This document shows, in pieces, positions 29,930-59,004 of a DNA stretch of 64,000 bases. Every line of letters starts with the position of its first letter. Within the stretch, counting starts at the first letter, position 1. The notes beneath the pieces were generated by a model. The model was given only the letters and a program-made list of their open reading frames with translations, was not told the origin of the DNA and searched no databases. Both the position numbers and the translations under genes were made by a program. The stretch comes from Anaerolineae bacterium (GTDB lineage: Bacteria; Chloroflexota; Anaerolineae; Aggregatilineales; Aggregatilineaceae), in contig JAHDLB010000013.1 of the NCBI GenBank assembly GCA_018432315.1, forward strand, positions 1 to 64,000, in the 5' to 3' direction.

Positions 29930-30847
29930 TCACCACACCTTGCGCCAGGCGTGATCGATATCCACGTCGGTGAAACCGAGCGACTCGTACAGGCGGTTCG
30001 CCGCGACCATGTCGCCCGTGCCCACCTCGGCCATGACCGCGCCCTGCGCCGCCAGCCGCCGCAGCCCCGCGACCATCGCCGCCTGGGCGAGCTTGCGGCG
30101 CAGGTGGTCCGGATGCGTGCAGACCGGCTCGAACGTGCCTACCCGGTTGGCCGCGTCGTAGGTCACGCCCGCGGTCGCGGCCAGCGCCCCGTCCGGCGCC
30201 TCGATCACGATGTCGAGGTCGGACCGGTACGACGGCGATTGATGAAACTGGCGCAGTTCCTCGCCGGTGTGGACAGTGCGCCCGAACGCCGCGTTGAGCA
30301 GGTCCGCCATGCGCTGGCAGTCCGCGTCATCGTCGCGCAGCGTGCGAACCGTGTACCCGTCCGGAACCGCGATCGCCGGGATCGGCCCGTCCATCCAGCG
30401 GCGGCGGTAGGTGCCGTAGCCGGGAAGCTGCTCGTACCCGCGCCGGGCCAGCAGTGACTGGCGGGGCGTGTCGTACTCGTACACGTCCAGGAGCACCTGC
30501 CGGCGGCCATCCGGCCCCGGCACGGCGAGGTATTCCTCGCCCCAGGCGATCATCTCGTCTTCCAGGTGGCGGAAGTCCGGGTGAATCTCCAGGAAGACCC
30601 AGCCCGGCCCCTCTGGGTGAACCGCGCCCACCAGGTCGCCCGCCGCCGTCTCCCAGACGCGCACGGTCGTCTGCCAGGGGCGGTCCCCGATCAGCATGTC
30701 GTCGGCGGCGCGGTGCGAGCACCAGCCCTCCCAGCGCCGGATCTCCCAGTTGTGCCGGTTCTGGTTGCGCGGATAGGTCGCGATCAACAGGTCGCGGATG
30801 CGCCAGAAATCGGCGTCGTGTTGGTACGGTCGTGAATGGATTTGCAT
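29930..30847 (-). CDS. Double GNAT-domain acetyltransferase
   Basis: A 305-residue protein with two acetyltransferase halves. The N-terminal half (residues 1-150) holds GDLVGAVHPEG and EIHPDFRHLEDEMIAWGEEYL, a degenerate GNAT core. The C-terminal half (160-305) has the full pattern YTVRTLRDDDADCQRMADLLNAAFG (shortened) and the acetyl-CoA region VCTHPDHLRRKLAQAAMVAGLRRLAAQGA, where the usual RxxGxG/A is RRKLAQA, then NRLYESLGF. Substrate unknown. It lies 29 bases downstream of the ABC-F gene in the same direction and may share its transcript. Confidence 0.8.
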   Translation of the reverse strand: MQIHSRPYQHDADFWRIRDLLIATYPRNQNRHNWEIRRWEGWCSHRAADDMLIGDRPWQTTVRVWETAAGDLVGAVHPEGPGWVFLEIHPDFRHLEDEMIAWGEEYLAVPGPDGRRQVLLDVYEYDTPRQSLLARRGYEQLPGYGTYRRRWMDGPIPAIAVPDGYTVRTLRDDDADCQRMADLLNAAFGRTVHTGEELRQFHQSPSYRSDLDIVIEAPDGALAATAGVTYDAANRVGTFEPVCTHPDHLRRKLAQAAMVAGLRRLAAQGAVMAEVGTGDMVAANRLYESLGFTDVDIDHAWRKVW

Positions 30848-30876: not shown

Positions 30877-32532
30877 TCATGCCAGCAGCGGTTCGCGGAC
30901 CTGCACGGCCAGCGCGCCGTTTTCGATGTACCAGACGGTGGTGGCGAACTTGTCCACGAAATAGCGATCGTGAACCACCGCCAGCACGCTGCCCTGGAAG
31001 GCCGCCAGCGCTTCCTCGAACTTCTCGCGCGAGGGCACGTCCAGGTGATTGATCGGCTCGTCGAGCACCAGCAGGTTCGCGCCGCGCGCCACCAGTACGG
31101 CCAGCATCAGCCGCGCCCGCTCGCCGTAGCTCAGGCTGGCGACCGGCGTGAAGACGTCGTCCCCGGCGAACAGGAAGTAGTGCAGGAACGAGCGCGCGTC
31201 GGTGTGGCTCAGCGGCGCTTCGGTCTGGATGATCGCCAGCGCGCTGCCCGCCGGATCGAGGATTTCCTGCTCCTGGGCCAGGTAGCCGATCCGGACGCTG
31301 GCTCCGATCCGGGCGCGCCCGCCCAGCGGCGGCACCTCGCCGATGATGGTCTTGAGCAGCGTGCTCTTGCCGTGGCCGTTCGGCCCCAGCACGGCCACCC
31401 GCTCCCCGGCGCGCAGCGTCAGGTTCAGGTCGCGCAGCAGCGGCGCCGCCGGGTCGTAGCCCACGGTCAGCCCTTCCAGGGAGACGACGTCCTGCCCGGT
31501 CGCCGGCAGATCGCCGAAGTCCAGCTTGAGGCTCCACGTCTGGCGGGGCTTCTCGACGCGTTCCGCCGCGTCGAGATACTTCCTGAGACGTGTCGCTTTG
31601 GCCTGGGCGCGCGCGGCGACCTTCTTTGCGTAGCGCCGCTGGTGGTCGTTGATGGTCGCGTTTTCCTTGCGGACGGCGCGGGCCATCGTCTGGCGGACGT
31701 CGGACTGCAGGCGCGCGATCTCGACCTGCTGATCGCGCCATTGGGCCCACTGCCGGTCCAGCTCCGAGCGGATCGTCGCGACGTAGGCGCTGTAGTTGCC
31801 CTCCACCACGCGGGCGGTGTGCGTCTGGCCGTCGATGGCGACGACGCGCGTCACGGTTTCGTCGAGAAACGTGCGGTCGTGCGAGACGATCAGCGCGCCG
31901 CCGGGAAAGGTCTTCAGCCAGCCTTCCAGCCATTCGAGCGCCGTCACGTCGAGGTGGTTGGTCGGCTCGTCCAGGATCAGGAGCTGCGGATCGTTGACCA
32001 GCAGCGCGGCCAGCCCCAGCCGGGTTTTCTGCCCGCCGGACAGCGTGCCGACCGGCGTGCCCAGCGGGACGTCGCCCAGGCCCAGCCCGGCCAGGATGCG
32101 CTCGCTCTCGCCGGAATCCACCTGGCGGCTGAGCGTCTCCAGCCGGTCGAGCGCTTCGGCATAGGCGGCCATGTGCGCGTCCTGCTCGGACCCCGCCGCC
32201 GCGGCCACCGACGCCGCCCGCCGTTCGACCTCGGCCTCGGCTTCGCGCAACGCCGCCGCCAGCGGGTACAGCGCGTCGCGCAGCGGAGTCTCGTCCGGCA
32301 CGTCGAGCCCTTGCGGCAGATAGCCCACCCGCAGATCGGACGGCGAGAACTGCACGCCGCCGCCGTCCGGCGACAGCTCGCCCATGACGATCCTCAGCAG
32401 CGTGGTTTTGCCGCTGCCGTTGGGGCCGATCAGCGCCACGCGCTCGCCGGGGTTGACGGTGAACGATACGTTGTGGAGCACCGGGGCATCCGCGCCCGGA
32501 AAGCGTTTCGAGAGATTGGAGACGGTTAACAT
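30877..32532 (-). CDS. ABC-F family ATPase (ribosome-associated, possible antibiotic-resistance factor)
   Basis: A 551-residue soluble protein with two ABC domains and no membrane part. Domain 1 has Walker A GPNGSGKTT (residues 36-44), signature LSGGQ and Walker B LLILDEPTNHLD. Domain 2 has Walker A GPNGHGKST, signature LSYGE and Walker B LLVLDEPINHLD. The interdomain linker (about residues 245-330) is a long basic helical hairpin (ENATINDHQRRYAKKVAARAQ) as expected for an ABC-F that reaches into the ribosomal exit site. The gene is preceded by a regulatory leader (32533-32820) of the kind used by drug-inducible resistance genes. Drug specificity cannot be told. Confidence 0.9.
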   Translation of the reverse strand: MLTVSNLSKRFPGADAPVLHNVSFTVNPGERVALIGPNGSGKTTLLRIVMGELSPDGGGVQFSPSDLRVGYLPQGLDVPDETPLRDALYPLAAALREAEAEVERRAASVAAAAGSEQDAHMAAYAEALDRLETLSRQVDSGESERILAGLGLGDVPLGTPVGTLSGGQKTRLGLAALLVNDPQLLILDEPTNHLDVTALEWLEGWLKTFPGGALIVSHDRTFLDETVTRVVAIDGQTHTARVVEGNYSAYVATIRSELDRQWAQWRDQQVEIARLQSDVRQTMARAVRKENATINDHQRRYAKKVAARAQAKATRLRKYLDAAERVEKPRQTWSLKLDFGDLPATGQDVVSLEGLTVGYDPAAPLLRDLNLTLRAGERVAVLGPNGHGKSTLLKTIIGEVPPLGGRARIGASVRIGYLAQEQEILDPAGSALAIIQTEAPLSHTDARSFLHYFLFAGDDVFTPVASLSYGERARLMLAVLVARGANLLVLDEPINHLDVPSREKFEEALAAFQGSVLAVVHDRYFVDKFATTVWYIENGALAVQVREPLLA

Positions 32533-32583
32533 GGTCCAGGTCCTTCCTGCGCCAGCGGGGCGGGCGGCCCGGCTGGTGGCCGA

Positions 32584-32685
32584 TCAACGCGAGTCGGGGA
32601 TACAACACAAAACGCCGCCAGGAATGCCCGTGCGGCGTAAGTTGACTCGATGAGGTGGCAGGGTGAATCGGTTGTCAGCCATCAT
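32584..32685 (-). CDS. Leader ORF 2 upstream of the ABC-F gene
   Basis: A 33-codon frame, ATG ATG at 32685-32680 to TGA at 32586-32584, coding MMADNRFTLPPHRVN, then LRRTGIPGGVLCC, then IPDSR. It lacks a good ribosome-binding site. The terminator-like hairpin (32638-32612) lies inside it, so ribosome position on this frame could set whether the hairpin forms. No homologue was recognised with certainty. It may be a translated sensor peptide or a fortuitous frame. Confidence 0.4.
   Translation of the reverse strand: MMADNRFTLPPHRVNLRRTGIPGGVLCCIPDSR
32612..32638 (-). terminator. Attenuator-like intrinsic terminator in the ABC-F leader
   Basis: Read on the minus strand: ACGCCGC (32638-32632), a 13-base loop, GCGGCGT (32618-32612), then TTTGTGTT. 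It lies about 180 bases after the promoter and 80 bases before the ABC-F start, so it can stop transcription before the gene. Confidence 0.65.
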
Positions 32686-32723
32686 GCGACAAGGTCACAG
32701 CACACAAGCAGTCCCGCGGAGGG

Positions 32724-32750
32724 CTAGCTGTTGGCGAACCTCGTCACCAT
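32724..32750 (-). CDS. Leader peptide of the ABC-F gene, 8 codons
   Basis: ATG at 32750-32748 to TAG at 32726-32724, coding MVTRFANS. A GGAAAGG ribosome-binding site precedes it at suitable spacing, which is better than that of the main gene. It lies about 65 bases after the predicted transcription start and 85 bases before the terminator hairpin. Short, well-initiated leader ORFs of this kind sense stalled ribosomes in erm and ABC-F regulation. Confidence 0.5.
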   Translation of the reverse strand: MVTRFANS

Positions 32751-32823
32751 GAAGGACCTTTCCACTCGACACGACGATGGACGGAGAGAAAACCGGCGCG
32801 CGGTTCCCGCCCCGACGTCTGGT

Positions 32824-32853
32824 ATTGTACTGGTTTCGGCGGGCGGCTGTCAA
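32824..32853 (-). promoter_or_regulatory. Promoter of the ABC-F leader transcript
   Basis: On the minus strand TTGACA (32853-32848) and TACAAT (32829-32824) with 18 bases between. Near-consensus, so transcription initiation is probably constitutive and control lies in the 285-base leader. Confidence 0.75.
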
Positions 32854-33934: not shown

Positions 33935-36900
33935 TTAGAACCCGGCCAGCTCGCTCAGGTCGGCGCGCCCGCGCGCCAGCCCGGCGATGGCCTGCAGCAG
34001 GCCCAGGCGATTCTCGCGCACCTGGGGATCGTCGGCGTTGACCAGCACGGCCTCGAAAAAGCGCTGGATGACCGGCACCACCGGCTCGAACGCCGCCAGG
34101 AAGGCGTCGACGTTGCCGTCGCCGTCCAGGTGCGCGGCGGCGGCCTGGTAGGCGGCGTACAGCTCGCGCTCGGCCTCTTCGACGAACTTCGCGCTATCGA
34201 CCGGGTAGACGGTCGCCTCGGGCCGGGTGATGCGCACGCAGCGCGCGTAGTTGTCCAGGATCAGCGGCCAGTCCTCGCGCCGGACCCACGTCGCCAGCTC
34301 GGTCACGCCGCGCAGCGCCCGCAGCGGGCGGTCGCCCTGCTCGGCCAGCACGGCGGCGATCACGTCGTGCGGCCAGCCCTGCTCGTGCAGCCACACGTCC
34401 AGCCGCCCGACGATGAACGCAACCACGTCCCGCTGGACGTCCTCGCTCACCGGGACCGGCTGCGCCCCGGCCACGCAGGCCACCGCGCGCCCCAGGTCGA
34501 GATCGACCTCGCGCTCCAGCGCGATCTGGATCACGCCCAGCGCGGCGCGCCGCAGCGCGAACGGATCGGCGCTGGCAGTGGGCGCCAGCCCGGCGGCGAA
34601 CAGCCCAACGAGGCTGTCGAGCCGGTCGGTCAGCGCCAGCAGGATGCCGGGCCGCGACTCCGGCAGGCGGTCGCCCGCGCCACGCGGCAGCCAGTGCTCG
34701 AAGATCGCGTCGGCCACGGCGGGCGGCTCGCCCTGGTGCAGCGCGTAATAGCGTCCCATGACGCCTTGCAGCGAGGTCATTTCGACGACCATCTGCGTGG
34801 CGAGATCGGCCTTCGCCAGCGCGGCGGCGCGGCGGGCGGTCGCCGCATCCTCGCCGGACACGCCGAGCAGCGCGGCCATCTGGGGCACCAGCCCGGCGAC
34901 GCGCTCGTTTTTCTCGAGCATGGAGCCGAGCTTCTCCTGAAAGGTGAGCGTGCCCAGGCGCGGCAGGTAGCTTTCGAGCGGCTGCTGGATGTCCGCCTGG
35001 TAGAAATAGTCGGCGTCGGCAAAGCGGGCGCGGATCACGTGCTCGTTGCCGCCGATCACGACGTCGAGGTGCTCGGCGTCGCCATTGCGCACGGCGATGA
35101 AATACGGCAGCAGGTCGCCCGCGGTATCCTCGACCGGGAAATAACGCTGGTGCTTGCGCATCACGCCGATCAGCACTTCGCGCGGCAGCGACAGGTACTT
35201 GTCCTCGAACGCGCCGCGCAGGGCGGTCGGGCGCTCGACCAGGTTCGCCACCTCGTCCAACAGGTCGGGATCGTCGGGAATGCGCCCGCCGACCTCGTTC
35301 GCCAGGGCCATCGCTTCCTCGCGGATGGCGGCGCGGCGCGCGTCCACGTCCAGGATCACGCCCTGGCGGTCCATCTCCGCGAAGTACGACGCCGCGTCGC
35401 TGAGGGCGATCTCCGGCGAGCCGTAGGGCCGGATGCCGCGCGTGACGTTGCTGCTCTCCACGCCCGCGTAGGCGAAGGGGATCACGTAGTCGCCGATCAG
35501 CGCGACGATCCAGCGCAGCGGGCGCGAGAAGCTGGCGCCGCTGGCGTTCCAGCGCATCGACTTGCCGAACCTGATCGCGCCGACCAGATCGGGCAGCGCC
35601 TCGGCCAGCACGTCCGCGGTGGGGCGGCCTTCCTCGCGGACCCGCGCGACGACGTATTCGCCGCCATCCATCGCGCGCACGTCGAGATCGTCCACGCTGA
35701 CGCCCTTGCCGCGGGCGAAGCCTTCGGCGGCTTTGGTCGGCTTGCCGTCCGCGTCGAAGGCGCGCGCGGCGGGCGGCCCCTTGACCAGGGACTCCTGGTC
35801 GCGCTGGCGGGGCGCGGCGTCCTTGATGTGCGCCACCAACCGGCGCGGCGTGCCCATGATCGCGATCCCGGCGTGGTCGATGCGCAGATCGTCGCACAGG
35901 GCCGGGACCAAGTCGCCAAGCTGGGCGAGCGCGGCGGACAGGTCACCCGCGGGCAGTTCCTCGGTGCCCAGCTCGATCACGATGTCGGCGGGGCCCTCCG
36001 GCGCGCTTGCCGCCGGGCGGCGCGGGGCGGGCGCGGGCTGTGCCGCCCACCGGTCGAGGGCGTGCATCAGCGGATATTCCAGGTGTTCGCGCTGCTCGGA
36101 GTAGGCCAGCGCGATGCTGCGCGTCATGTCGCGCATCCGGCGGAAGTAGCCCGCGCGCTCGGTGACGCCGATCGCGCCGCGCGTGTCGAGCACGTTGAAC
36201 AAGTGGCTGCACTTGAGCACGTAATCGTAGGCCGGAGTGACGGCGCCCGCCGCCAGCGCGCGCTGGTATTCGCGCTCGTAGACGTCGAACGTCTGCCGGA
36301 GGCCGTCGACGTCCGCGATCTCGAAGTAGTAGCGGCAGTGCTCGATCTCCGGCTGGAGGCGCACGTCGCCGTAGGTGATCGCCTCATTCCAGTCGATGTC
36401 CCACACCGCGTTCTTGCCTTGCAGCGCCAGCACGATGCGCTCCAGCCCGTAGGTGATCTCGACGCTTACCGGGTCGAGCGTGATACCGCCGGCCTGCTGG
36501 AAGTAGGTGTACTGCGTGATCTCCTGCCCGTCGAGCCACACTTCCCAGCCCAGGCCCCACGCGCCCAGCGCCGGGGATTCCCAGTTGTCTTCCACGAAGC
36601 GGATGTCGTGCTCGCGCGGGTCGATGCCCAGCGCCTCCAGGCTCGCCAGGTAGATCTCCTGGGGATCGCCCGGATCGGGCTTGAGGATGACCTGGTACTG
36701 GTAAAAGTACTGCATCCGGTTGGGGTTCTCGCCGTAGCGGCCATCGTCGGGGCGGATGCTCGGCTCGACGTAGGCCACGCGCCACGGCTCCGGCCCCAGC
36801 ACGGAGAGCAGCGTGGCCGGGTTGCCGGTCCCGGCGCCGACCTGGACGTTGTGCGGCTGCCACATCACGCAGCCCTGGTCGATCCAGAACTGGTGGAGTT

Positions 36901-36937
36901 TCATGATCACGTCTTGAAAGGACAACGGTTTGGTCAT
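33935..36937 (-). CDS. glyQS: Glycyl-tRNA synthetase, fused alpha and beta subunits
   Basis: A 1000-residue single-chain enzyme that charges tRNA-Gly. Residues 1-300 are the catalytic alpha part ([25 protein letters not shown] shortened, [45 protein letters not shown] shortened). A Pro/Ala-rich joint near residues 310-325 leads to the beta part ([13 protein letters not shown], then [16 protein letters not shown], and the C-terminal anticodon-binding region with [12 protein letters not shown]). Most bacteria make these as two chains; the fused form is known in several phyla including Chlamydiae. TATAAT on this strand (36986-36981) leaves a leader of about 40 bases, too short for a T-box. Confidence 0.96.
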
Positions 36938-58886: not shown

Positions 58887-59004
58887 CAGGTTGCTCGGAC
58901 TGGGTCCTGCGCGGCAGGGCGTCCGAACCGTGTCAGGGCCGGAAGGCAGCAGCACTAAGGATTTCACCCTGGGTGCCGCAGGAGCGCCTGGCCCGAGCAA
59001 CCTG
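58887..59004 (+). ncRNA. ffs: Signal recognition particle RNA, small bacterial type
   Basis: The terminal helix pairs CAGGTTGCTCGG (58887-58898) with CCGAGCAACCTG (58993-59004), a perfect 12-bp match. The apex carries the universally conserved core with the GGAA tetraloop (GTCAGGGCCGGAAGGCAG, 58932-58949) and CAGCACTAAGG after it. This is the 4.5S-like RNA that binds Ffh and targets membrane proteins. Size is about 118 bases. A TTTTT run follows at 59018-59022. Ends are estimated from the closing helix. Confidence 0.95.

Follow-up and report, generated by a model that had tools for sequence, protein, structure and literature searches.

What governs the ABC-F ATPase gene on the minus strand of the 64,000-nucleotide stretch of Anaerolineae DNA analysed here (the window), and how could a stalled ribosome reach it? 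How drugs induce ABC-F genes is known from work on Firmicutes and Actinobacteria. A sequence-only reading of the window, a member of the Chloroflexota, had placed this gene behind a ribosome-stalling attenuator with two short upstream reading frames (uORFs), one of 8 and one of 33 codons. We found the promoter, the 8-codon uORF with its ribosome-binding site, the terminator and the ABC-F gene all at the places on the minus strand that this reading had given them, and consider it highly probable that the leader is a ribosome-mediated transcription attenuator of the ABC-F gene, worked by drug-stalled ribosomes at the uORF. The elements of the locus are as follows:

32824 to 32853, minus strand: sigma-70-type promoter TTGACA-18-TACAAT, from a consensus scan and the near-constant promoter-uORF distance in relatives.
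32780 to 32816, minus strand: 5' hairpin GUCGGGGCGGGA...CUCCGUC (DNA GTCGGGGCGGGA...CTCCGTC), from the MFE fold.
32757 to 32763, minus strand: uORF Shine-Dalgarno GGAAAGG, kept as GAAAGG or AAAGG in relatives.
32724 to 32750, minus strand: regulatory uORF MVTRFANS, the proposed sensor, from its translation (MVTRFANS*).
32725 to 32748, minus strand: 5' strand of the anti-antiterminator helix, made of the uORF codons (duplex coordinates; swap test z −8.7, 47 leaders).
32685 to 32715, minus strand: 3' strand of the anti-antiterminator, GGGACUGCUUGUGUGCUGUGACCUUGUCGCA, partner of the uORF (duplex and swap test).
32696 to 32711, minus strand: antiterminator segment CUGCUUGUGUGCUGUG, partner of the terminator 5' arm and loop at 32638-32624 (swap test z −7.1, 47 leaders).
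32612 to 32638, minus strand: intrinsic terminator ACGCCGCACGGG-CATT-CCTGGCGGCGT, then TTTGTGTTG (hairpin −17.8 kcal/mol).
32541 to 32548, minus strand: ABC-F Shine-Dalgarno AGGAAGGA, able to pair with the uORF Shine-Dalgarno region GGUCCUUC.
30877 to 32532, minus strand: ABC-F ATPase gene, 551 aa, ribosomal-protection-like (NF000355, 414.6 bits against a cut-off of 380).
29930 to 30847, minus strand: double-GNAT acetyltransferase gene, 29 nt after the ABC-F gene.

The promoter, with TTGACA at 32853-32848 and TACAAT at 32829-32824 across an 18 nt spacer, matches the consensus at 11 of 12 positions, and the scan returned 2 promoter-like sites where 0.3 were expected. GGAAAGG stands 6 nt upstream of the 8-codon uORF. 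The 51-nt segment holding the terminator scored z −3.17 against shuffles; its T tract is interrupted, which is why a simple consensus scan did not list it, and relatives have cleaner tracts, such as GGCGGCGTTTTTT. The 33-codon frame at 32685-32584 is present mechanically (MMADNRFTLPPHRVNLRRTGIPGGVLCCIPDSR*), yet it lacks a Shine-Dalgarno and has no counterpart among 30 relatives. Without a ribosome-binding site or conservation it is ruled out as a second sensor, so the two uORFs first proposed are reduced to one, and the hairpin lying inside the 33-codon frame is the real element there.

To see which parts of the leader are kept, ABC-F orthologues were gathered from relatives, their upstream DNA was read, and 31 leaders of the window's order were compared. 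A Shine-Dalgarno-led uORF of 6–10 codons was present in 29/31, where dinucleotide shuffles gave a mean of 3.2%. The spacing of promoter and uORF is nearly constant, and all 31 had a terminator hairpin (−15.7 to −25.6 kcal/mol) positioned 68–132 nt beyond the uORF stop. The expectation that orthologous leaders would conserve both reading frames and the hairpin thus held for the 8-codon-type uORF and the hairpin and failed for the 33-codon frame. The 5' hairpin at 32780-32816 is strongly conserved within the window's family and absent from f4 and f6 leaders. Within the window's own genome the leader is single copy, no second one having been found; the ABC-F paralogue in that genome, 40% identical, lacks a leader of this kind and is preceded by a TATAAT at a distance of about 40 nt. 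A GATTC motif (TTTTTGATTC) is conserved after the terminator T tract in L119-L124, L252-L274 and others, and TTTGATTC is found also in the mid-leader of several members.

The uORF peptides vary among these relatives (MVRNEVNNR, MTRTEVNH, MVRSEVPQR, MLVRIASH, MTRLTNR, MTDGYTNS, MRQVSAAR, MSTRIANR, MIRVTAR), and in the window's own lineage the peptide sequence is only loosely conserved. Two groups of leaders, whose members were picked for having MTTDS- or MTD-type peptides and which therefore show synonymous drift within groups, had multiple alleles at third positions: 3 and 4 alleles at those of the two Thr codons in the MTTDS group, with one allele elsewhere, while variation in the MTD group, with 4 and 2 alleles, was confined to third positions. 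This pattern suggests that MTTDS- and MTD-type uORFs are read as codons.

What connects the uORF to the terminator is a pair of helices that the sequence-only reading did not contain. All 31 leaders have MFE folds in which the codons of the uORF are base-paired to the stretch following its stop codon (11–28 pairs). The pairing sequences differ by family: the window has ACGAGGUU:GACCUUGU and a different family has CGUAACG:CGUUACG. The helix so formed is the anti-antiterminator, and the uORF lies within it as in vmlR-type leaders, with at least 9 uORF:downstream pairs in each of the 31 MFE folds. The competing antiterminator pairs the RNA just past the uORF stop with the 5' arm and loop of the terminator, for example GCUUGUG:CACGGGC, GAUUACC:GGUAAUC and GAUUAUCC:GGAUAAUC. 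RNAalifold on a MAFFT alignment recovered the terminator alone, since the positions of the other helices vary too much for alignment, and we therefore used swap tests, in which one strand of a helix was exchanged among 47 leaders, near-duplicates removed, over 20000 permutations. Native anti-antiterminator strands summed to −948.1 kcal/mol against −775.2 (sd 19.8) after exchange (z −8.7, 0/20000), and native antiterminator strands to −745.4 against −625.7 kcal/mol (sd 16.8; z −7.1, 0/20000), while two control pairings showed no comparable excess. The test should be conservative, since exchange between relatives keeps pairing. Both helices are thus held by compensatory change over the 47 leaders. 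Direct pairing of the uORF with the terminator (z +0.69) was rejected on this test, as was pairing between the distal leader and the terminator; neither was in excess.

Folding with a ribosome in place gave results in the same direction. Antiterminator pairing was computed on RNA made up to the terminator loop, with a ribosome mask over the uORF start, and its mean over the 31 leaders rose from 0.09 to 0.53. The gain exceeded 0.1 in 24 leaders and was small or nil in the other 7, and in none was there a fall of more than 0.1; when the post-stop RNA was shuffled, masked pairing reached only 0.22 (Wilcoxon p 4.6e-6). In the window leader a ribosome at the AUG raised antiterminator pairing from 0.07 to 0.78, a gain equalled by 2 of 12 post-stop shuffles, and in the complete leader the mask lowered the terminator from 0.89 to 0.05. 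Across the set the mean for the terminator went from 0.92 to 0.80 under the mask; it remains the equilibrium fold in most relatives, and the switch there must therefore act kinetically, during transcription. Swap tests with their controls and ribosome-mask folding together show mutually exclusive helices linking the uORF to the terminator.

The mechanism we propose would run as follows. When no drug is present, ribosomes would complete and leave the 8-codon uORF, and the vacated RNA would pair with the adjacent downstream segment as the anti-antiterminator, hiding the antiterminator strand; the intrinsic terminator would then form and transcription would end ahead of the ABC-F gene. A drug that stalls the ribosome at or near the uORF start would keep the uORF covered and block the anti-antiterminator, and the freed post-stop strand would capture the emerging terminator 5' arm, letting polymerase run on into the ABC-F gene and, probably, the GNAT gene as well. 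Comparison and computation support the parts of this scheme, their conservation and the pair of competing helices. With promoter, uORF, terminator and both helices conserved, the earlier proposal that a ribosome-stalling attenuator with an ORF for a leader peptide precedes the ABC-F gene gains strong comparative support. Induction of the window's ABC-F gene by ribosome stalling is, on this comparative evidence, very likely; that a drug does the stalling, and which drug, we infer.

The product of the gene has two ABC_tran stretches and scores above the cut-off of the ribosomal-protection-like profile (NCBIfam NF000355). All named ARE profiles (Vga, Msr, Lsa, OptrA, Sal and others) were far below their curated cut-offs, and the best solved-structure match by sequence score was EttA, a housekeeping ABC-F. 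Patchy presence among close relatives is a criterion used for ARE ABC-F proteins (PMC6723617), and at E≤1e-150 we found the ABC-F in 37/154 genomes of the order and 2/5 of genus g5, counts in which many assemblies are incomplete. We take it as a protein that would protect ribosomes, with a putative role in resistance. The GNAT gene is probably co-transcribed with it; GNAT homologues elsewhere either adjoin the ABC-F gene (L023, L024, L125, L134) or have a leader of their own (L265/L291, L266, L273).

Could the same parts serve something other than drug sensing by attenuation? The three-helix logic would serve amino-acid attenuation equally, since a slowed ribosome suffices, and the uORF might then report slow translation in general, such as scarcity of one charged tRNA, rather than drugs. 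The uORFs, however, have no run of one codon and encode peptides as diverse as MVRNEVNNR, MTDGYTNS and MRQVSAAR, and the genes downstream are ABC-F, GNAT and MFS genes rather than amino-acid enzymes, so we regard a general translation-rate or amino-acid sensor as unlikely. Slightly less probable still is a mainly translational attenuator, in which the uORF region would sequester the ABC-F Shine-Dalgarno and the hairpin would terminate little. The window's GGUCCUUC, ahead of the uORF, is indeed complementary to GAAGGACC ahead of the ABC-F gene, and another family, f42 (described below), does show pairing between the uORF stop region and the Shine-Dalgarno of the gene. In the swap test, though, Shine-Dalgarno pairing was non-significant both across the order (z −1.4) and in the window's own family (z −1.6), whereas every order-level leader retains the terminator and the antiterminator. 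Pairing between the two Shine-Dalgarno regions was likewise rejected as a general second layer of control on that order-wide score, striking as it is in the window, L011, L015 and L031.

The leader is also structured, with a conserved 5' hairpin as well as the terminator, as might be expected of a riboswitch-like element that binds a metabolite or protein and for which the uORF is incidental. Against this, no Rfam family matches the leader and it has no conserved pocket-like sequence; what is kept while the sequence drifts is the Shine-Dalgarno, start, stop and length of the uORF, which is itself one strand of the switch, and we hold such a riboswitch to be improbable. Finally, GC-rich DNA yields short ORFs and GC-rich hairpins by chance, and the locus could in principle be an unregulated leader made of an ordinary promoter, a chance ORF and a terminator belonging to nothing. 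The conservation and compensatory change described above refute this computationally and leave it a negligible chance.

With drug-responsive attenuation as the preferred reading, the closest known counterpart by layout is the vmlR leader of Bacillus subtilis, in which a uORF in an anti-antiterminator, an antiterminator and a terminator are arranged so that lincosamide or pleuromutilin stalling near initiation induces the gene (PMC9226507). Here too the uORF lies inside the anti-antiterminator, the antiterminator captures the terminator, and an intrinsic terminator precedes an ABC-F gene; the differences are a uORF of 6–10 codons rather than the 3 of vmlR (MIN), another bacterial group, and occurrence also before GNAT and MFS genes. 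Very short uORFs are likewise found in the cplR leader of Clostridioides difficile, vmlR2 and lsaA (MRI, MK[L/Q], MAGN; PMC10201436). The window leader resembles cplR in having a very short uORF sequestered in a hairpin and a terminator before an ABC-F gene. In cplR, transcription and translation attenuation are combined and the terminator stem hides the gene's Shine-Dalgarno (PMC10201436), whereas in the window terminator and gene are 79 nt apart. By its predicted architecture, the leader is of the vmlR/cplR type of drug-responsive attenuation. The streptococcal msrD leader also sets a leader-peptide ORF before an ABC-F gene under drug stalling (here presumed), but its peptide sensing is macrolide-specific (PMC10314930), while the peptide is loosely conserved in the window's lineage. 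The small size and loose conservation of the uORF, by analogy with these systems, suggest that the inducers are inhibitors of initiation or of the earliest peptide bonds (lincosamide, pleuromutilin, streptogramin A) rather than macrolides sensed through a long peptide. The bmrC/bmrD attenuator of B. subtilis puts a drug pump under ribosome-mediated transcription attenuation (as described in PMC9226507), the type predicted here before pump genes, but it stands as a single gene, with no demonstrated leader family in common with ABC-F and GNAT genes. For the present bacterial group the literature, in the incomplete library searched, held no report of such a leader.

How far the leader reaches was surveyed with a covariance model, dominated by leader sequence and terminator, that was run over the order blind to the downstream gene; partial, mainly-terminator matches (G034, G039, G085, G086, G092) are left out of the survey of downstream genes. 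Besides the orthologues, the same leader stood before other ABC-F lineages at about 22 loci, before GNAT acetyltransferases (L254, L265/L291, L266, L271, L273, L290) and before MFS transporters (L256, L268). Nearly all model-found leaders had a short uORF of their own, such as MTTDSSSK, MRRTSNNR, MEIASNNR or MAGTTVNP; that of L296 is degenerate. The recurrence of this layout in related bacteria, with pump and acetyltransferase genes among those it precedes, makes it probable that antibiotics are sensed through the ribosome in this little-studied group. Logic like that of vmlR and cplR would thus be at work in a mostly uncultured group, in leaders outside Rfam that are reused before ABC-F, GNAT and MFS genes. 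Such leaders offer a route to new resistance genes that is independent of the genes' own sequence. They also provide a large number of very short natural uORFs with which to relate peptide sequence to the inducing drug.

Beyond the order, the leader's sequence family can hardly be recognised. ABC-F genes belonging to this clade in other parts of the class have even shorter uORFs (MTDNL, MTDSK, MTD*, MID*), and other families in the class have uORFs of 3–5 codons, some with apparent translational output. In family f42 (L144, L213, L215, L188, L131, L132, L182), uORFs of 3–4 codons (MTD, MTE, MID, MIR, MTN, MIIS) precede ABC-F genes, and the Shine-Dalgarno of the ABC-F gene finds a pairing partner in the uORF stop region (GUUCAC:GUGAAC, GUUUAC:GUAAAC or GAUAAC:GUUAUC), with compensatory changes that only 3 of 5040 permutations equalled. 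The f42 leader is thus an apparent translational attenuator. It is about an even bet, in our judgement, that the window's leader belongs to a modular family of antibiotic-sensing attenuators making up an RNA-based resistance regulon in the class, with interchangeable very short uORFs before several ABC-F lineages, acetyltransferases and efflux pumps and an output that moves between terminator and Shine-Dalgarno sequestration across families. The peptide types that recur (MTTDS..., ...NNR*, MTD*) could be stalling motifs, each suited to its own drug.

Some further layouts and neighbours were seen along the way. Family f34 (L148, L150, L152, L155-L158, L160, L162, L163) has 5–6-codon uORFs, mostly MTD.., plus a terminator, and the CCUGUAG that ends its uORF seems able to pair with a CUACAGG close to the start of the gene; f34 may combine a terminator with Shine-Dalgarno sequestration. 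Another layout of the same idea occurs in L126, L127, L129, L130 and L198 (f55/f59 and others), where uORFs of about 6–21 codons have their start codon within a CAGGGATG...CATCCCTG hairpin, before a terminator. Elsewhere in the window are a bacterial small SRP RNA at 58898-58996 on the plus strand (RF00169, 65.7 bits) and, at 33935-36937 on the minus strand, a glycyl-tRNA synthetase whose alpha and beta parts are fused in one 1000-aa protein.
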